A program made the position numbers and the translations under genes. Shown one piece after another: positions 7,989 through 41,989 of a stretch of DNA of 41,989 nt; the stretch's first letter is position 1; each line of letters opens with the position of its first letter. Origin of the DNA: Gemmatimonadota bacterium (GTDB lineage: Bacteria > 4572-55 > J002); the NCBI GenBank assembly GCA_003697105.1, contig RFFQ01000040.1, positions 1 through 41,989 of the forward strand. Direction: 5' to 3'. The notes below the pieces were generated by a model that was not told where the DNA came from, did no database searches, and worked only from the letters and a program-made list of their open reading frames with translations.

Positions 7989-8690
7989 ATGAAATCGATT
8001 CCTCCCATCCAACCGACCTTAAGTGTGCCCCGCACATGCGGCTATTTTTCGGATCGGCAGTGGGTGTTTGAAGAATTCGGGTACGAGTTTGTTCGCCCGC
8101 AAGTACTCGATGAGTTATTGGCGGCAGGATGGCGGCATTTTGGTATCCATTTTTTTCGTCCGCGATGCCCAGCCTGCCAAGCCTGCCAACCGATCCGGAT
8201 ACCGGTTAAAACGTTTTCCCCCAGCCGGAGCCAACGCCGGGCACTCCGTAAAAATACGGATGTGACCCTAGAAATTGTTCCCCCCGAACCCCGCTTAGAT
8301 ACCTTTCATCTGTATGCCAGGCATAACCAACAGCGGTTTAAAACCAATGCTTCCCCCGAATTTTATCTGTGGGGATTGACCGACAATGTTTGTCAAACCA
8401 AGGAATTTCGCTATAAATTAAACGGGCGTCTGATTGCCGCCGGTTTTATTGATGAAGGTATTACCTCGCTTTCCTCCATGTATTTTGTATATGAACCACG
8501 CTATGCCAAGCGCAGTTTGGGGGTGTTCAGTATTTTGAAAGAAATTGAATATGCCCAAAAGACAGGACGAGAATATTACTATCTGGGGTATTACATCGAG
8601 GGGAACTCCCACATGTCCTATAAAAATGCCTTCAAACCCAATGAAATTTACGATTGGGAGACCCAAAGTTGGTGGGAATTCCTAGAGTAA
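7989..8690 (+). CDS. bpt: Aspartate/glutamate leucyltransferase or arginyl-tRNA-protein transferase (Bpt/Ate family)
   Basis: The 233-residue product transfers an amino acid from aminoacyl-tRNA to the N-terminus of proteins beginning with Asp or Glu, marking them for ClpS/ClpAP (N-degron pathway). Seen here are CGYFSDRQW near the N-terminus, the Cys cluster CPACQACQP with IRIPVKTFSPSRSQRR, and the GNAT-like C-terminal half with SSMYFVYEP and a GYYIEGNSHMSYKNAFKPNE stretch. These are hallmarks of the Ate1/Bpt family, and length is normal. Leu versus Arg specificity cannot be decided from sequence by eye. No Shine-Dalgarno is visible; the gene follows the HEPN gene by 9 bases. No clpS or aat is in the window. 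Confidence 0.9.
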   Translation: MKSIPPIQPTLSVPRTCGYFSDRQWVFEEFGYEFVRPQVLDELLAAGWRHFGIHFFRPRCPACQACQPIRIPVKTFSPSRSQRRALRKNTDVTLEIVPPEPRLDTFHLYARHNQQRFKTNASPEFYLWGLTDNVCQTKEFRYKLNGRLIAAGFIDEGITSLSSMYFVYEPRYAKRSLGVFSILKEIEYAQKTGREYYYLGYYIEGNSHMSYKNAFKPNEIYDWETQSWWEFLE

Positions 8691-8701
8691 ATCCCCAAAC
8701 G

Positions 8702-9493
8702 TTAGAGGTTAGCTTTCACGAATCCACCATCCACCAATAGCGATGTTCCCGTGACATACGATGACAACGTAGAAGCGTAAAACAACACCGCATTGGCAAT
8801 CTCTGCCGGTTGTGCCATCCGTCGCATGGGGATTGCCGACGTGAACATGGCGAGGGCTTCGGCTTCACTCACACCCTCGGATTTACATTTATCTGCCACC
8901 AGCTCTTGAACACGTTCGGTTAAGGTATAACCGGGGCAAACATTGTTGATGCGGATATTTTCTGCGGCGTATTCATCCGCCAATGATTTCGTCAAGCCAT
9001 GCACCGCCGGACGGATGACATTGGACATCAGCAAGCGCGGGATCGGTTGGTAAACGGAGACCGAGGTGATATTGACAATCTGTCCCCCGCCAACTCGCTG
9101 AAAATGGGGAATGACCCCCCGAATCAAGCGAATTACGCTCATTAGAGTAAGATCGACACCTTTTTGCCACTGTCCATCACCGGTAGCCATAAATGGTGTC
9201 GCCGGCGGACCTCCAGCGTTGGTCACTAAAATATTGATTTGATTAAATCTATCGACGGTCTGTTGGATCCATGCCTCAATTTGATCCGGTTGGGTGACAT
9301 CCACCGGTAAGGACCAAACGGTCGCACCGGTACGCTCCCGAATGGTAGAAGCGGCAGTTTCCAACCGCTCCGGATTGCGAGCACACATGGAAATTATTGC
9401 GCCGGCTTCGGCTAATTTTAACGCGCAGGCATACCCAATGCCTTGACTGGCGGCGGCAACTAAAGCCACTTGATTGGTTAATCCTAAATCCAT
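8702..9493 (-). CDS. SDR-family oxidoreductase, FabG-like subgroup without the YxxxK motif
   Basis: The 263-residue Rossmann protein has the SDR layout: VALVAAASQGIGYACALKL nucleotide loop, NAGGP (the NNAG motif), NITSV with the catalytic Ser region, PGYTLTERV and a C-terminal YVTGTSLLVDGG. At the position of the catalytic Tyr-x3-Lys it reads S-N-V-I-R (in LLMSNVIRPAV), so both residues are replaced. That is the pattern of a known subgroup of FabG-like SDRs whose coenzyme motif and catalytic tetrad both deviate. The start at 9493 is chosen for a strong GGAGGAG ribosome site 8 bases upstream; a longer frame exists but lacks such a site. It is divergent from ribD and convergent with the transferase gene. 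Substrate unknown. Confidence 0.85.
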   Translation of the reverse strand: MDLGLTNQVALVAAASQGIGYACALKLAEAGAIISMCARNPERLETAASTIRERTGATVWSLPVDVTQPDQIEAWIQQTVDRFNQINILVTNAGGPPATPFMATGDGQWQKGVDLTLMSVIRLIRGVIPHFQRVGGGQIVNITSVSVYQPIPRLLMSNVIRPAVHGLTKSLADEYAAENIRINNVCPGYTLTERVQELVADKCKSEGVSEAEALAMFTSAIPMRRMAQPAEIANAVLFYASTLSSYVTGTSLLVDGGFVKANL

Positions 9494-30011: not shown

Positions 30012-31361
30012 ATGTTTAATTATCACGAAGCAATGCGCCGGGCACTGGCGTATCCGGGACAGGTAAAGTATGAACTGGATTCGTATGATTACTATTTTCA
30101 GCAGGAATTGGATCAAACCCCGATTCCCAATTTTCACCTGAACAAGAAAATTCATGCGGTCTATCCGGTGTTTGATGAAAAATACACCCTGTTTAAGCGC
30201 TTCAGCGAAGGGCTTTTCCGTATTTTTGAAAAAGTAGCAGAAGAACGCTTTCAGGAGATCACCGCCGGGAAGGATGATTTCGGATTTTCGGAATTTGAAC
30301 AACGGTTGGTCAAAGTGCGCCCTCGTTCCGGACGGTTGATCCGCCATTTGCGCTTTGATGCCATCTATTCCCCGTCTTACGAAAAGATCGTGATCTTGGA
30401 ATGCAATCCCGAAAATCCCGGCGGGATGTGGGATAACGACTTTGCCGTCAGTTGCATGGCACGCAATATGTCCAAGCTGTATCAAGGAATTTTTGCACCG
30501 GACGGAGACTGGTCAAAAATCAATTACAACAAACAAAAAGATATGCTGATCAATTCCATCGTGGACGCCCACCAGACCATGTTTGGCAAACCACCGGTGA
30601 CCATTGCCATCGGGCTATTCCCAGAAGATGACGGGCACTTTATCGCCCATTGTCAGGCGCTTTACATGCGACAAAAAGGCTTCAACGCGATTGTGGTCAA
30701 TCCGGCGGAACTGCGCTACCATGAGGGCAAAGTGTACGCCCCAGATAATACCCCCATTGATGTTCTTTTCCGTGGATTCCTGATTTTTGAAGCCAATAAT
30801 CACGCCCATGAACTGGATCAATTTTTGGCGGCATACGAAAATCAAGATTTATGCGTGGTCCCGCCGATGAGCGATGCGCTGGTCAATTCCAAAACCTTGA
30901 TCGCCGAAATCCCAACGCGCTACCGCCACCTGCTCACCGATGAAGAATATGCCCTAACCCAAGAGTTTTTCCCCGAAACCCACGTCCTTACCCCAGATAA
31001 TTACGACCGATTTATGAGCGACCTGATGAACTGGGTCATTAAACCGGGCGAAGGTTACGGCGGTTTTGGCGTGTTAGTGGGGCGGGAATCGTTCGATAAG
31101 GAATTGCCAAGCAAAGCGGATGTTGCCAACGGGCATTGGGTCGCACAGCGCTATTACCCGCATGAAACCATCAAAGCACCCTATTATCATTATGAGAACG
31201 GCACTGTCTCGATTGAGACAATCAATGTGGTTATCGGTACTCTTTGCATCTTGGGCAAATATACCGGTACCTTGGTCCGCGGGGCGTTAGGGAACGTAAT
31301 TAACACCCATCAAGGGGCCGAAATTTTGACCCCATTTGACCCCGACTATTGGGTAAAATAA
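30012..31361 (+). CDS. ATP-grasp-fold ligase, probably circularly permuted
   Basis: The 449-residue protein shows ATP-grasp-like motifs in permuted order. An acidic, metal-type loop ILECNPENPGGMWDNDF comes first (about residues 130-146), and a glycine-rich lysine loop WVIKPGEGYGGFGVLVG (K344) comes late, as in glutathionylspermidine-synthase-like and DUF404-type ATP-grasps. It then continues WVAQRYYPHETIKAPYY and ends LVRGALGNVINTHQGA. Such enzymes join a carboxylate, activated as acyl-phosphate, to an amine. The start is ATG 30012, with GGAGGAGG 8 bases upstream; a longer frame overlaps icd. A terminator follows the gene. I do not recognise a characterised orthologue; substrate unknown. Confidence 0.7.
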   Translation: MFNYHEAMRRALAYPGQVKYELDSYDYYFQQELDQTPIPNFHLNKKIHAVYPVFDEKYTLFKRFSEGLFRIFEKVAEERFQEITAGKDDFGFSEFEQRLVKVRPRSGRLIRHLRFDAIYSPSYEKIVILECNPENPGGMWDNDFAVSCMARNMSKLYQGIFAPDGDWSKINYNKQKDMLINSIVDAHQTMFGKPPVTIAIGLFPEDDGHFIAHCQALYMRQKGFNAIVVNPAELRYHEGKVYAPDNTPIDVLFRGFLIFEANNHAHELDQFLAAYENQDLCVVPPMSDALVNSKTLIAEIPTRYRHLLTDEEYALTQEFFPETHVLTPDNYDRFMSDLMNWVIKPGEGYGGFGVLVGRESFDKELPSKADVANGHWVAQRYYPHETIKAPYYHYENGTVSIETINVVIGTLCILGKYTGTLVRGALGNVINTHQGAEILTPFDPDYWVK

Positions 31362-31395
31362 CACCGGTGCAAGTGGATTGGATTGCTTGGCGATT

Positions 31396-31429
31396 AAAAG
31401 GGCATGGAATCCCGTCCATGCCCTTTTTT
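31396..31429 (+). terminator. Intrinsic terminator after the first ATP-grasp gene
   Basis: AAAAGGGCATGGA (31396-31408), 6-base loop, TCCATGCCCTTTT (31415-31427), 13 bp, with six T residues (31424-31429). It lies 34 bases after the ATP-grasp stop. Confidence 0.93.
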
Positions 31430-31430
31430 A

Positions 31431-31459
31431 TTGAAATCTGATGCCCCGTGTGCTAAATT
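31431..31459 (+). promoter_or_regulatory. Promoter directly after the terminator
   Basis: TTGAAA (31431-31436), 17 bases, TAAATT (31454-31459). It starts one base after the T-run of the preceding terminator and would drive the fusion gene at 31509. Confidence 0.6.
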
Positions 31460-31508
31460 CAACGTCACCTGTCCCATTGTTGGTCTCTTCCCTCTAAATA
31501 GGTCGGTT

Positions 31509-33971
31509 ATGCGCGGAAAAATCATTTGTAGCAGTCACAACATCAATCGGGAGGCATTTATCCATCGTTTTCGCGATTTGATTGCCTCCACGAACCATTT
31601 TGACCCCAAAGTACGGCGCACCAAAAAAGTACTGCTCATCACTGCCGGCTGGCAAACGGCAGAGTACGAAGAAAGCCACCTCAAACGTGCCCTCAACCGG
31701 ATTGGTATTGAGTCTCGATATGATGCCCACGGGTACGACATCAATATCCAAAATCTGGCGATTTACCATCAATTTAACCGGTTCAAAGCCCATTCCAGCA
31801 AAATTTATCAGGAATATCACGAAAAACAGGAGACGATCAAGCACATCAAAGAATTCTATCGCACCAAAAATACCGGCATGATTGAAACCTATTGGGAACA
31901 GGTCGATTTGGTGCGAAAGTACTTCCCCGACATGAACCTGCGCGATATTCTGGGATACAAAATCGATCAACCGCGCGGTGATTTGACCGGTTTGCCACTG
32001 CCAGAGGTGCAAAAACTCTATTTTTGCCAGCAAGTGCAAAATACCTTGCGGAATGTGATTCAATATGACGAGATGATGGTCAACACGATTGAGGAGATTG
32101 AATCCTATTTTGTGGCACATTCCAACGTCAAACAAGATGCTCTTTACCAACAAATTCGGAATGATCTGCAACAGCGCATCCTTTCCAGTAACTCGATCTT
32201 CATCTTTGGGGGACACACGACGGTGCTGATGAACCGCCTCCGCTTTTTTGACTTGAAGGAGACGTTGATCGAAGCCCTCAACCGCGGGACAAACTTCTTT
32301 ACGGTCGGTTCCGGGGCGGAAATTTTATGCGATAAATTGATCCTGTACAATAACCATCCGGATCGCCGCACGCCCCGCGAAACCTTCGAGTTTCATGATA
32401 ACGGCTTAGGATTAATCAGCCATCTGCAAATCCTACCCCCCAACGTTTCGCAAATCAATATTGAAGACGCCGACCTGCGCACCCATATCGCGAATCGATT
32501 TAATAGCCATACCTGCGTCTTACTGGATAAAGATTCCTATCTTTACATAGAAGCCCGCCCGGAGACGAACCAATACGAAGAAACAACGACAGAGCAACGG
32601 TACATTGCCCTCGGTGAGACCGATTATCTCTACATTTTTAATAAATCCGGTGAGTTGGAGCGGAAACATGCCGGCGAGGAACTTTTCCCGGGCAAATCGC
32701 GACGGATTACAACCTCGCTGGTCCATCGCGATGCCTCACCCCGCTTGAAAGCGTTGATCAGCCGGGTGCACCATGTCCAGCGAATCAAATACGGTAACAT
32801 CAACGAGGTTGTCCAACAATTCATCCAAAATGAGACCTTCCCCCTTACTGATGGCTATACCACAACATTTTTCTATTTTGATCCCCATCATACCGTCAAA
32901 TCGGTCTATCTCTACAGTTCCATTGGGCACGATGATGACGATCTGGTCTTTTACCAGTACAAAAATACGGGGATTTTTTACCTGCCGATGAAATTTCAAC
33001 CGGTTTCACGGTTGGAATATAAATTGATGTTAGATTACGGGAATCAGCAGTACCGGGAGATACTAGACCCGTACCATTCGCACTGGGCATACGGGCCGTT
33101 TGGTCCGAAATCCGTTATGGTTACTCCGGATTACCGGCGTGCGGCGATGGCAGAATATCATGAGACACACCCTCACGGCACACTGGAGGAAGTCATTTTC
33201 CCCAGCCGGATAATGGGGGATCAACGACAATTTCAATTGTACACCCCGCCGGATTATCAGCCGGATACCCCTTATCCGCTGGTGATCTTCCATGACGGGT
33301 ATGATTATCTTCAGTTTTCGGCCCTCAAAACCATTTTGGATAACTTGATTCATTACCAGTTGATCCGTCCGGTTGTGGCGGTTTTTTCCAAGCCGGTACA
33401 CCGCTTTGAGGAATACGGCGCGAATCCAAAATATGCCCAGTTCATGGTAGAAGAGGTGATAGCGCACGCCCGCCAACGGCGGAACATATCCTCCAATCCC
33501 GTCGACATTTGCACGGTTGGAGCCAGTTTAGGGGGTGTCGTCTCCCTGTATCTATTCGATCAATATCCCGATGTGTTTGGCGGAGTGATCGCGCAATCCG
33601 GCTCATTTTTTATGAATCAAGAAGGATTCGGCTGGGCAAAAGACCGTGCCCCCCGCATCGTCAATTTTGTGGAACGCTTTACGGTCACCCCTCCCCAGCA
33701 CGATCCCAAAATTGTACTGACCTGCGGGCGATTTGAAGGGCTAATCTACATCAACCGGGTTATGGCAGAACGGCTAGACCAACTGGGCTATAATTACCGG
33801 TACATCGAAAACAATGATGGGCATACCTGGGTGGGTTGGTCTGATTTGATGCCTACGGCCCTCCGCAATATATTCGGAACGTTGACCACCGCCACCGGCG
33901 ATCTCATCACACCGGCGGGGATCATCAGCCTTAACAGCGAGGTACAACTGCCAATGGTGCAGTTTCACTAA
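31509..33971 (+). CDS. Fusion of an S51/cyanophycinase-like domain with an enterochelin-esterase-like domain
   Basis: The 820-residue protein has two enzyme-like halves. The first (about 35-400) follows the S51 peptidase plan: VLLITAGWQ, a long helical insert, SIFIFGGHTTVLMNRL, a nucleophile-elbow-like FTVGSGAEIL (S268), GLGLISHLQIL, and DKDSYLYIE. The elbow deviates from the usual GTSAGA. The second has an E-set-like segment (about 435-540, FFYFDPHHTVKSVYLYS) and an esterase-D/Fes-type hydrolase: LEEVIFPSRIMG, LVIFHDGYDY, nucleophile S673 in GASLGG, acidic E743 candidate, H772 in DGHTW. The start is ATG 31509, downstream of the terminator and promoter; earlier starts lie in the terminator. 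No signal peptide, so cytoplasmic. Likely cleaves a peptide or ester made by the flanking ATP-grasps. Confidence 0.7.
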   Translation: MRGKIICSSHNINREAFIHRFRDLIASTNHFDPKVRRTKKVLLITAGWQTAEYEESHLKRALNRIGIESRYDAHGYDINIQNLAIYHQFNRFKAHSSKIYQEYHEKQETIKHIKEFYRTKNTGMIETYWEQVDLVRKYFPDMNLRDILGYKIDQPRGDLTGLPLPEVQKLYFCQQVQNTLRNVIQYDEMMVNTIEEIESYFVAHSNVKQDALYQQIRNDLQQRILSSNSIFIFGGHTTVLMNRLRFFDLKETLIEALNRGTNFFTVGSGAEILCDKLILYNNHPDRRTPRETFEFHDNGLGLISHLQILPPNVSQINIEDADLRTHIANRFNSHTCVLLDKDSYLYIEARPETNQYEETTTEQRYIALGETDYLYIFNKSGELERKHAGEELFPGKSRRITTSLVHRDASPRLKALISRVHHVQRIKYGNINEVVQQFIQNETFPLTDGYTTTFFYFDPHHTVKSVYLYSSIGHDDDDLVFYQYKNTGIFYLPMKFQPVSRLEYKLMLDYGNQQYREILDPYHSHWAYGPFGPKSVMVTPDYRRAAMAEYHETHPHGTLEEVIFPSRIMGDQRQFQLYTPPDYQPDTPYPLVIFHDGYDYLQFSALKTILDNLIHYQLIRPVVAVFSKPVHRFEEYGANPKYAQFMVEEVIAHARQRRNISSNPVDICTVGASLGGVVSLYLFDQYPDVFGGVIAQSGSFFMNQEGFGWAKDRAPRIVNFVERFTVTPPQHDPKIVLTCGRFEGLIYINRVMAERLDQLGYNYRYIENNDGHTWVGWSDLMPTALRNIFGTLTTATGDLITPAGIISLNSEVQLPMVQFH

Positions 33972-34016
33972 ACACGATCCAGCCTTGAACCTAAAACGTA
34001 CAAAAAAGGAGGAGTT

Positions 34017-35246
34017 ATGCGTCACGTTGTCTTTTATTCGCCTCATTTTGGGGAAAATACGCTGCGGTTTGTGTGGCCCATCCGGCGCCACATGCCGGAT
34101 GTGAATCTCATCGGCATTGGACAAGACCCTCCCGAGTATATTGAGAGTTTAGGTGGGGCATTTAACGAATTTTATCGTGTGGAGGATGCCACCCAGCAAG
34201 ACCAACTGGAAGCAGTGATTCGGGCACTCTCTACCGACCGCCAAATCCACGCCTTGCTCAATATTCAGGAACAACTCCAGATGCTCATCGCGCGGGTACG
34301 GGAACGGTTTGGTATTCCCGGTATCTACCCGGAGACCATGCACAAATTCCGTGATAAAGCCCACATGAAGCGGGTCTTAAAGGAAAATAATATCCGCTGT
34401 GCAGATTATCGGCGCGTGAATTCCGAAGCCGAAGCCCGCCAATTTGCGGAAGAAAACGGCTATCCCTTTGTCCTCAAGCCACTCAAAGGAGCGGGATCGG
34501 TGGATACGTTCGTGGTGTTCAACCAGTTGGAATTTGATAATTATCTGAGACAGATGGATATTACTCCAGAAACACCGGCAATTATGGAAGAGTTTATCCT
34601 CGGTCAGGAAGGCTCTTTTGATACGTTGACCTTGAATGGGGAAATCAAGTATTATGGCATCAACCACTACTACCCCACCCCGCTGGATGCCATGCGCAAC
34701 CCTTGGATACAACCGATTTACATTTTTAATCATGAATTGGTGGATAGCCCCGAACTGGAAGATGTCCGGGAAGTGGGACGCCGCGTGATTGAGGTGTTTG
34801 CACCGGGGACATCCATCACCCACATGGAGTGGTTCCGGCGCCAATCGGATGGAAAAATTTATGTCGGGGAAATTGCCGCACGTCCCGGCGGAAAACCGAT
34901 TATCGATCTGCATAATTTCGCCCAAGATATCGACTTATACCGGGCTTGGGGCGAACTCATGATCAATCACCGGGTTGATTTAAATGCGGAGCGAAAATAC
35001 AGTGCCGGCTGCGCCCATTTGCGGGCACAAGGTCCTAAGGGTGGGCGCATTCGCGAAATTCACGGTGTCGAGCAGGTACGGCAAGCAGTCGGGCGCTATA
35101 TCGTGGATGAACTGATCCCGCCCATCGGGAGCGAGAAAACCGAATCCTACATTGGCGAAGGGCACTACTACTGCCGCGGAAAACGGTTCGACGAAGTCTT
35201 CAGTGCGCTGCGTTATATCGTGGAAACCATCCGAATCTACTGTTGA
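34017..35246 (+). CDS. ATP-grasp ligase (carbamoyl-phosphate-synthetase-like fold)
   Basis: The 409-residue protein has a standard ATP-grasp order: an N-terminal Rossmann-like part (VVFYSPHFGENTLRFVW), a central helix with HKFRDKAHMKRVLKENNI, the ATP lysine K154 in FVLKPLKGAGSVDTFVV, the acidic hinge AIMEEFILGQEGSFD, and the metal site VGEIAARPGG. It matches amino-acid ligases such as those joining amino acids in dipeptide or siderophore-like products, and is unlike its permuted neighbour. A GGAGGAG site 4-5 bases before ATG 34017 supports the start. It follows the fusion gene by 45 bases with no terminator, so they are co-transcribed. Substrates unknown. Confidence 0.8.
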   Translation: MRHVVFYSPHFGENTLRFVWPIRRHMPDVNLIGIGQDPPEYIESLGGAFNEFYRVEDATQQDQLEAVIRALSTDRQIHALLNIQEQLQMLIARVRERFGIPGIYPETMHKFRDKAHMKRVLKENNIRCADYRRVNSEAEARQFAEENGYPFVLKPLKGAGSVDTFVVFNQLEFDNYLRQMDITPETPAIMEEFILGQEGSFDTLTLNGEIKYYGINHYYPTPLDAMRNPWIQPIYIFNHELVDSPELEDVREVGRRVIEVFAPGTSITHMEWFRRQSDGKIYVGEIAARPGGKPIIDLHNFAQDIDLYRAWGELMINHRVDLNAERKYSAGCAHLRAQGPKGGRIREIHGVEQVRQAVGRYIVDELIPPIGSEKTESYIGEGHYYCRGKRFDEVFSALRYIVETIRIYC

Positions 35247-38861: not shown

Positions 38862-41800
38862 TTACTCCTCCTCAAAACCGAAGGAGTCGAAGCGAAGTGT
38901 CCGGCAGTTTTCTGTCACATCACGAACGGTCTTATCGGAGGCCCCGTCCGGCAATCGGGCCTGAATCTCAAGCGTTACCTCGACCTCAGCGCCGACAAGT
39001 TTTGTTAAATGCTGAATCACCTCATCGGCGATACGCCCGGCATCACGGCCGACGCGGAGAGAATCCAACGTCACTGATCCATAAAATCGGCGATATACCG
39101 GCGTTACGGGGGTGACACTGCGGTCTCCCGGTTGCACAGCGCCCTGCGCTCCGCTGTCCGGGGGAAAACCCGCTTCACCCGGTTGTCCGGAAGATGTTGT
39201 TTCCCCGCCGGCAACGGCAGATGTTTCCCGGCGGGCGGCGTCTTCGCGGATTTGCCGTGCCGCCACGTCCGGCTTGACCAGAAGCGTCCCCCCCTCGGAT
39301 TGGATGTTTACGGCTTTTCCTGCATCCAGGGCACGATACCGCCCGGATTCTTCGTCTTTGCCCTGGGCATAAGCAAATGTATCTGCTTCCCATGTCAACC
39401 GGGATACACCTTCACGGATCGCCCCCACCAGAACATCCGGATCACGAAGGCGGGGAAGGTACAGGTACGTTGCGAAGTCCTCGATGAGTTGTTTCACCGC
39501 CACATCATCACCGCGCCATAAAGGCACGCGATCCAGTTCCAGGCGGAGCCGGATGCCTCCCATCTGAACGAGGAGCATCTCCTCATTTTTCAGTTTTTTA
39601 CTGGCCCTCAAAGCAAGCGAGTCGGTGCCCTGTAAACGGATTTCCGTCCAATCCAGCGCGCCACGAAGTTCAGGTTGTCCGGGTGCAAGCAACCACTGCC
39701 AGGTTTCGGGGATTCGGGCCTTGACCGTCTCATCGGCTGCCTTGCGTTTCGTTTCGGCCTGTTTGGACTGGAACGGATCCAGATTCAGTTGTTCTCTTTC
39801 GTCCCAGATGGACTTCCACGCCAGGTACTGACGGATGGCTGTCTGCAATTCCTTCAGGCGGGTTGCATCACCGGCCAGAAAAACAAGCGTGTTCCGGTAA
39901 TTACGCGGACCGGCTCCGCGATTGTTCAGAACGTTTTCCGCTTCGACGCGTGCCTGACTGTCATGTTGCCCTTTGGTATGTGGATGTTCAGGGCCAAGGA
40001 TAACCAGGCGTGCTTCACGCTCGTCGGGAATGTCACTGCTGCCCGAGCATGCATGCACCCGATGAAAATCGCCCCGGCTCCGGGCCTCTTCCCGCAACCT
40101 GCGGACAATTTCGTCCTGCACATCATGTTCGTGAAACTGGCCAGCCCGATCTTCGGCCAGACGGGTCACCGTCGGCTGCGTTGAGTACCAGTACCGGCGG
40201 CCGTCCACATACAAATAGGTTGCCCGGTCCGTCAGCCGCCGCAGGGCGTCTCCGAATGTCGCCACCGTCTCTCCGGGCTGGACACATCCAAGTTTGACCT
40301 GCCGGTCGTCAATGCCGCGGTTGGCAGCCCGCTGCGTCGGAGCGGAACCGACATAGATGGTTCGAGCCACCCGGCGGCAGGCAGAGTATCGTCCGAGGTT
40401 GGGCACCTCTCTGTCAAGAGAGAGCGGCAACGAATGTTCGCCGTCCACGTCTTTGGCGATAACCGGAGTCCACTGGTCGTCCAGATAGCGCGTCAATTCA
40501 AATTGCACGGCCGGGTCATCAATGGGGACCGTTGCCGGCATGATCAGCAGATTGCCATCCTGCCGCTCCCATAATGAATGGATCACGGTAGCCATTAATC
40601 GGAGCACTCCCCGTGTTCGCTGAAATTTATCCAGGGTTGACCAGTCGGTGTACAGCCGGTCAAACAACTCCGGGTGGATGGGGTAGGCCATCTTGATGCG
40701 TCGTTCGTACTCCGCCTCCCGGCATTCCGACGGGAACTCATTGTGTTGCGTTCCATACATTTCCACGAACGCGCGCGCCACCGCGTCTCGGGCGACAAAC
40801 GCCTGCTTGTCCGTAATGGGCTCGAACAGACGCCGCCGGACAATCTCAAACCCCTCATCCGGACTTGCCGGACGCCAGCTTGATTCCACCCGGCCGATGG
40901 CGTTCTTCAACCGCGACAACGCCCTTTGCCCCCAGTCACCGCCAATCTCATTGTCCGAGGCGGGGATGCTCACCACCAACAACGTATCTTTCGCCGTTTT
41001 GGCCGACTCGCTCAGAGCTTGGGCGAAGGTGAATTGCGTATCAAACGATCCGGCGGGCAGGTCGCTGCCTTCATGCAATTGCCGGGCGTAAGCCACCCAT
41101 TCATCGATAAGGATCAGGCACGGTGAGTACCGGTTGAACAGATCCTTGAGCCGGTCACCCGGGTTGGTGGCATTCTCGTCATCTTCCCGGACCATTTCAT
41201 AGCCTTCCCGGCCACCGAGCTGCCAGGCGATTTCACCCCAGAGCGTTCGCACAATGGTGCCGTCATCCTTCCGGATCGGACTGCCCGGCGAAATTTTCGT
41301 GCCGACCACCACTGCCCGGTTCACAGAAACGGGAAGATCACACGCTGCCTGGTCGAGAATCTGCTCAGTGCCAGGCAGTTCTGTTACAGGTGTACCGGAA
41401 AACAGGTGATACAGAGCCAGCATGCTGTGGGTCTTGCCGCCGCCGAAATTGGTCTGCAGTTCGACCACCGGATCTCCGCCCCTGCCGGAAAGGCGCAAAA
41501 CAGCATTGCTCAGCAACTTCCCCAGTCCTTCGGTAATATATGTGCGACGGAAGAATTCCGTGGGATGTTGGTATTCCGATGTCGCTTCACCCAGATATAC
41601 CTGCCAGAGATCGGCTGCGAATTCCGCCTGGCTGTATTTTCCGCTGGCCACATCTTTATGCGGCGTGACAACTTTGCGCCAGGGTTTAAGACCACTCTGC
41701 GGGCTCCCTTCAGTTGGCCGGATGGAGCTTTTCCGCATTTCATTGCGGCGTTGTTCGTCGAACCGCACCCGCAGCAGGGCCATCTTCTGTGTTTCGAGCT

Positions 41801-41989
41801 CTTTGGCCTGGGGAGCGGAAACCGCGGTCAGCAGCCGTTCCATACTGTCCAGCGCCCGGTACGTATCGTCGCCGGAAAACCGCTCCTGATGCGCCCACTT
41901 GTTCCGCACATCCCGCAATTCGCTGACCAGGGATCTTTCGGTGCGGCCGAGAATATTTCGGAAGACGTCATTCCACGCATCCCACATCA
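38862..41989 (-). CDS. Swt1-HEPN and DUF499 ATPase, N-terminus cut by the window edge
   Basis: At least 1041 residues are visible; the first Met at the edge is probably internal. Residues about 10-55 form a Swt1-type HEPN segment with the RNase-like motif R-N-K-W-A-H (RVRNKWAH-like: VRNKWAHQERF) and DDTYRALDSMERLL. Then comes a DUF499 P-loop ATPase: Walker A TNFGGGKTHSMLALYHLF, Walker B PCLILIDEWVAYAR, sensor-like LLVVSIPASDNE. The C-terminal RFYGSVTLDSLRVGRDAGRIADEV tail is characteristic of DUF499 proteins. This family is found next to DNA methylases (DUF1156) and other restriction/defence genes, and BrxC of BREX is a related ATPase. GC content is higher than in the rest of the window (38 of 60 bases at 40201-40260 against 27 of 60 at 12001-12060), supporting transfer. 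Confidence 0.85.
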   Translation of the reverse strand, partial: MWDAWNDVFRNILGRTERSLVSELRDVRNKWAHQERFSGDDTYRALDSMERLLTAVSAPQAKELETQKMALLRVRFDEQRRNEMRKSSIRPTEGSPQSGLKPWRKVVTPHKDVASGKYSQAEFAADLWQVYLGEATSEYQHPTEFFRRTYITEGLGKLLSNAVLRLSGRGGDPVVELQTNFGGGKTHSMLALYHLFSGTPVTELPGTEQILDQAACDLPVSVNRAVVVGTKISPGSPIRKDDGTIVRTLWGEIAWQLGGREGYEMVREDDENATNPGDRLKDLFNRYSPCLILIDEWVAYARQLHEGSDLPAGSFDTQFTFAQALSESAKTAKDTLLVVSIPASDNEIGGDWGQRALSRLKNAIGRVESSWRPASPDEGFEIVRRRLFEPITDKQAFVARDAVARAFVEMYGTQHNEFPSECREAEYERRIKMAYPIHPELFDRLYTDWSTLDKFQRTRGVLRLMATVIHSLWERQDGNLLIMPATVPIDDPAVQFELTRYLDDQWTPVIAKDVDGEHSLPLSLDREVPNLGRYSACRRVARTIYVGSAPTQRAANRGIDDRQVKLGCVQPGETVATFGDALRRLTDRATYLYVDGRRYWYSTQPTVTRLAEDRAGQFHEHDVQDEIVRRLREEARSRGDFHRVHACSGSSDIPDEREARLVILGPEHPHTKGQHDSQARVEAENVLNNRGAGPRNYRNTLVFLAGDATRLKELQTAIRQYLAWKSIWDEREQLNLDPFQSKQAETKRKAADETVKARIPETWQWLLAPGQPELRGALDWTEIRLQGTDSLALRASKKLKNEEMLLVQMGGIRLRLELDRVPLWRGDDVAVKQLIEDFATYLYLPRLRDPDVLVGAIREGVSRLTWEADTFAYAQGKDEESGRYRALDAGKAVNIQSEGGTLLVKPDVAARQIREDAARRETSAVAGGETTSSGQPGEAGFPPDSGAQGAVQPGDRSVTPVTPVYRRFYGSVTLDSLRVGRDAGRIADEVIQHLTKLVGAEVEVTLEIQARLPDGASDKTVRDVTENCRTLRFDSFGFEEE

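Follow-up and report, generated by a model that had tools for sequence, protein, structure and literature searches.

Peptides can be made by pathways whose only ligases are ATP-grasp enzymes, and these pathways, to which bacilysin and the E-64-type inhibitors owe their synthesis, escape NRPS-based genome mining. Enzymes of the same superfamily are also able to make esters, thioesters, and phosphorylated products. The described systems closest to the locus studied here are the L-amino acid ligases (RizA, 4wd3; BL00235, 3vot; BacD, 3wnz; ATP-grasp dipeptide synthases), the GspS-like permuted ATP-grasp enzymes (3n6x; CP_ATPgrasp_1/2), cyanophycin metabolism (cyanophycin synthetase together with cyanophycinase of peptidase family S51), the Fes/IroD and CE1 feruloyl esterases, and the amidoligase gene systems reportedly surveyed by Iyer, Aravind and colleagues in 2009, which likewise have ATP-grasp ligases clustered with peptidases and hydrolases for small peptides. 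The present gene set belongs with the ATP-grasp, NRPS-independent amide pathways and is not a member of any characterised pathway; a literature search returned no description of it, and an earlier account may exist, for example in the 2009 amidoligase survey.

The window, that is, the whole 41,989-nucleotide stretch of contig RFFQ01000040.1 (Gemmatimonadota bacterium, GCA_003697105.1) that was analysed, carries three intact ORFs at 30012-35246, all on the + strand, with the following features:

30012..31361, + strand: CPG, a circularly permuted, glutathionylspermidine-synthase-like ATP-grasp ligase of 449 aa (RxD/ExN motif before the K344 loop; 3n6x, E=8.5e-9)
31509..32798 (border approximate), + strand: N-terminal S51/cyanophycinase-like domain of the fusion protein, with a long helical insert (Peptidase_S51, 8.4e-6; active-site comparison)
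32799..33971, + strand: C-terminal Fes/CE1-type esterase of the fusion protein, with a complete triad (Esterase, 2.7e-19; fold match)
34017..35246, + strand: AGR, an ATP-grasp enzyme of the L-amino-acid-ligase type, 409 aa (K, E, E, and R conserved; 4wd3, E=5e-30)

Alignment with homologues placed the start of CPG at 30012 (M21 of ORF 29952), where the ATG is preceded by GGAGGAGG, and that of the fusion at 31509 (M36 of ORF 31404), and the ATG of AGR is preceded by AGGAGGAG. These ORFs and starts bear out the single-strand arrangement and the lengths of 449 and 820 aa given in the preliminary description. Gaps of 147 bp (CPG-fusion) and 45 bp (fusion-AGR) separate the genes, and a scan for promoters (13 vs 9.8 expected) and terminators (10 vs 8.3 expected) returned background counts, so operon structure is not settled by that scan. 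Because homologues in other phyla share 50-64% identity with the window proteins, the trio represents real, conserved genes.

CPG scored below the curated cut-offs of both related Pfam families, CP_ATPgrasp_2 (E=1.8e-4, 21 bits against 32) and CP_ATPgrasp_1 (15.5 bits against 23.1), and judged from these scores it is a divergent relative of the CP_ATPgrasp families, not an assigned member. A profile of eight CPG-family sequences matched 3n6x, a putative glutathionylspermidine synthase and the nearest solved relative, over the whole domain, and R114, D116, E130, N132, and K344 are invariant in all eight. The RxD...ExN motif precedes the K344 loop and aligns likewise with 3n6x, which confirms the permuted order that had been suspected from the K344 loop. 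CPG thus shares its motif order with the GspS-like enzymes, whereas it falls below their Pfam cut-offs and is a stand-alone protein; its partners differ from those known for GspS-like enzymes (amidase, alpha-E, transglutaminase). Homologues in Candidatus Cloacimonetes 4572_55 and bacterium SJ803 are 59-64% identical to CPG. Its predicted structure had a pLDDT of 38, and in the model of the fusion just the esterase half and a portion of the helical insert were good, with a poor S51 half; the fold assignments of CPG and of the S51 half therefore rest on sequence profiles.

The third gene had been called a classical ATP-grasp, and the matches of AGR to Pfam ATP-grasp (1.7e-7) and of its family profile to the L-amino acid ligase 4wd3, its nearest solved relative, over nearly the full length agree with this. 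The ATP-grasp site lysine, both glutamates, and the arginine are invariant among AGRs. Similar to the L-amino acid ligases, AGR keeps the lysine, acidic residues, and arginine of the ATP-grasp site; unlike them, it is a distant relative of which up to three ancient types stand beside S51, esterase, and X (a further ATP-grasp enzyme described below) or CPG, and L-amino acid ligases are not known to occur in such an arrangement. The window genome encodes a second AGR elsewhere. Two more distant AGR-like genes were seen in other settings. At locus L035 (G000:C48, 4973-9181), one such gene (8009-9181, - strand) immediately precedes three co-oriented genes of the RAMP superfamily (type III CRISPR-like). 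On a Peptoclostridium acidaminophilum plasmid (L109, 5998-7963), another adjoins a small esterase gene; S51 is lacking there, and genes for an amino-acid permease and DAHP synthase lie nearby.

The preliminary description read the 820-residue protein as an S51/cyanophycinase-like half joined to a Fes-like esterase half, and both assignments held. The protein matched Peptidase_S51 (PF03575) with 26 bits, above the cut-off of 23.9, and a family profile including stand-alone relatives matched the cyanophycinase-like 6nqc (E=0.0018). When the true S51 active site was mapped by profile alignment with 6nqc, the window protein was found to have VGSGAE at the nucleophile elbow, with the catalytic Ser replaced by Gly, and LPPN where the His is gone. 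Nucleophile Ser and catalytic His are absent from all four known fusions, which carry VG[STA]GAE or close variants instead; stand-alone copies have the Ser in 29 of 31 cases (WSAGA and variants) and an LPH/FPH His in most. Since both residues are lost in every fusion, the fused S51 half is probably not a peptidase, and the peptide cutting earlier ascribed to it is not upheld; a working S51 peptidase in the window was rejected because of this lost active site. That the fused lineage has lost this site is a definite prediction which can be checked. Among the S51-esterase pairs, L066 (G255) has also lost the S51 Ser and L067 (G118) has kept it; at both loci a distant X-like ATP-grasp of 353 aa overlaps S51 at stop/start, and a type I phosphodiesterase lies downstream.

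The C-terminal half matched enterochelin esterase (2.2e-23) in addition to Pfam Esterase, and comparison of its predicted model assigned it the CE1/Fes fold of alpha/beta-hydrolases. The triad S673-E743-H772 (S708/E778/H807 in the 855-aa ORF) is complete, and S/E/H are conserved among homologues. Fold and triad are therefore shared with Fes/IroD and CE1 feruloyl esterases, whereas the esterase here is fused to or adjoins S51 and is accompanied by ligases. Siderophore turnover was considered and rejected, since at the examined loci with the fusion or S51 no genes for making, binding, or importing a siderophore were recognised. A search of plasmids gave 13 esterase matches, of which the four inspected adjoin siderophore-receptor, NRPS, or other unrelated genes and not S51, and found no S51 relatives; no relatives were found in viral contigs. 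The cyanophycin pathway, which also combines ATP-grasp ligase chemistry with an S51-fold protein, was likewise rejected: a cyanophycin synthetase is missing from the window trio, AGR matches that enzyme at just 3e-6, the window ligases have no Mur-ligase domain and only weak ATP-grasp similarity to the synthetase, the fused S51 half lacks Ser and His, and the esterase is central.

Full-length fusions are rare. They were found in the window genome, in Candidatus Cloacimonetes 4572_55 (same class), in bacterium SJ803, and in Calditrichaeota CLD3, at about 50-52% identity. The expectation that the trio is conserved together was mostly borne out: CPG, fusion, and AGR are present in four of four fusion-bearing genomes and are contiguous in two (window and SJ803), the only ones where CPG is physically linked. 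SJ803 has the window order CPG-fusion-AGR, followed by a methyltransferase, a MazEF-like pair, and two more AGRs. Fusion and AGR are adjacent in 4572_55, with CPG elsewhere, and in CLD3 separate contigs carry the fusion, CPG, and a tandem of three AGRs. CPG (presence threshold E<1e-40) is present in four of 386 genomes spread over the domain, precisely the four that carry the fusion; the naive p is about 1e-9, although these four genomes represent only two clades.

Used as a query, the fusion retrieved its two halves as separate, adjacent genes in other phyla, and the S51 half alone retrieved 19 further loci, all with an adjoining esterase (one just a fragment). Being separate neighbours elsewhere and fused in the window lineage, S51 and esterase appear to be functionally linked (Rosetta-stone). 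Most often the genes run S51 - esterase - X - small esterase and are flanked on either side by AGR ligases, which number up to three per cluster; X is a divergent ATP-grasp of ~415 aa that weakly resembles D-Ala-D-Ala ligase and RimK. In one large phylum, 17 of 347 sampled genomes have X, and precisely these 17 have S51; they are distributed over nine families, and in three of them the two genes are unlinked. The naive p is about 3e-29, a value that genome relatedness makes too small. The recurrence of an S51/esterase/AGR core in other phyla supports the earlier proposal of a conserved system of ATP-grasp ligases and hydrolases. If housekeeping ATP-grasp and esterase genes with no functional relation had merely come to lie together by chance, this could account for the differing flanks at each locus, for the non-adjacent CPG of 4572_55, and for the scattering of all three parts in CLD3; such a chance neighbourhood is nevertheless very improbable and strongly disfavoured given the shared gene order of SJ803, the two exact co-occurrences (4/386 and 17/347), and the linkage repeated in other phyla.

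Many clusters consist of S51, esterase, and X with no AGR within the fetched stretch, and X may therefore be the one ligase that a minimal unit requires. In the window's own genome, a second ATP-grasp pair, an X-like ligase (E=1e-44) and directly after it a CPG-like permuted ATP-grasp (E=4e-22), follows an M42 aminopeptidase at L026 (G000:C65, 6549-8931). A GCS2/YbdK-type carboxylate-amine ligase (L142, 7934-9040), a further ligase type, directly adjoins an S51-esterase-X cluster.

A maximum likelihood tree of 41 AGRs resolved three strongly supported clades (A, B, and C) in the split clusters, where S51 and esterase are unfused, and clusters with three AGRs mostly hold one of each. Read from this tree, A, B, and C are three ancient AGR types that recur together. 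A fourth clade, made up of the window-type AGRs, is the sister group of B and was triplicated separately in Calditrichota. Sets of several AGRs thus have two separate origins, and this suggests that ligation takes place several times in succession. Genetically linked to the S51-like protein and the intact-triad esterase are several ATP-grasp enzymes with intact catalytic residues: CPG and AGR in the window, and X with up to three AGR types in other phyla.

We propose, with a probability of roughly 0.5, that these genes encode a cytoplasmic, NRPS-independent, multi-ligase pathway to a small amide-linked metabolite, in which the Fes-like domain would carry out an ester step. The ligases would activate carboxylates as acyl phosphates and couple them stepwise to amines, and their product would be a short, amide-linked, peptide-like metabolite made without an NRPS. 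The Fes-like domain may hydrolyse or, less likely, form an ester bond, either in the product or in an intermediate, and the degenerate S51 half might act as a binding or scaffolding module for the substrate of that domain. The S51 enzyme of other phyla is probably an active exopeptidase that would trim or recycle the amide. The chances are about even that this cross-phylum cytoplasmic pathway is represented in the window trio by its FCB-lineage (4572_55 / Calditrichota) version. A more specific proposal is offered tentatively and is somewhat less probable, namely that an undescribed NRPS-independent pathway of several phyla uses a fixed team of three to four different ATP-grasp ligases to make one conserved peptide-like metabolite, and that the window holds a rewired version in which X was replaced by a permuted ATP-grasp and S51 lost its activity and was joined to the esterase as a module.

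Degradation is the typical activity of Fes and S51 enzymes, and many clusters pair two esterases with S51, as would be expected if the locus served catabolism or salvage. The esterase (with the S51 peptidase outside the fusion lineage) would then break down an ester or isopeptide taken up by the cell, and the freed carboxylates would be re-activated by the ligases. This explanation is improbable, since the system is ligase-heavy, keeping three ancient ligase types together along with X or CPG, and no dedicated uptake gene is conserved beside the trio-type genes at the examined loci. The ligases might alternatively modify a macromolecule (a protein tail as with RimK, a lipid, or the cell wall), with the hydrolases reversing the modification and no free metabolite being made. 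Protein-tagging ligases exist among ATP-grasp families, X is weakly similar to D-Ala-D-Ala ligase and RimK, and the examined loci have no conserved exporter or transporter; however, over the full length AGR is most similar to ligases of free amino acids (4wd3, 5e-30) and CPG to a glutathionylspermidine-synthase-like enzyme, both being small-molecule ligase types, and the genes have no conserved neighbour that could be the target protein, so we regard macromolecule modification as unlikely, though less so than salvage. As to the pathway to a small amide-linked metabolite, enzymes of known superfamilies that are held together in bacteria otherwise sharing little point to a metabolite of general function. 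With its exact co-occurrence patterns, conserved catalytic residues, and natural fusion, the pathway lends itself to a direct test by expression of four to six genes in E. coli.

Genes flanking the trio members differ from locus to locus, and no conserved precursor-making enzyme, exporter, or regulator was found at the examined loci. BrkB and icd had been suggested as transporter and source of 2-oxoglutarate, respectively; neither they nor the histone deacetylase-like gene, LpxB, and the subtilase of the window have a homologue at any other fetched locus, and both roles were rejected on this ground. In several genomes of one phylum (L134, L138, L140, and L145), S51-esterase-X lies divergent beside SUF iron-sulfur assembly genes, as judged by eye from protein sequences. 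At the edge of the window (38862-41987), a DUF499 protein with a Swt1-like HEPN domain matches the NCBIfam model 'anti-phage-associated DUF499' below its cut-off; its gene is a candidate for a role in defence and has no relation to the trio.
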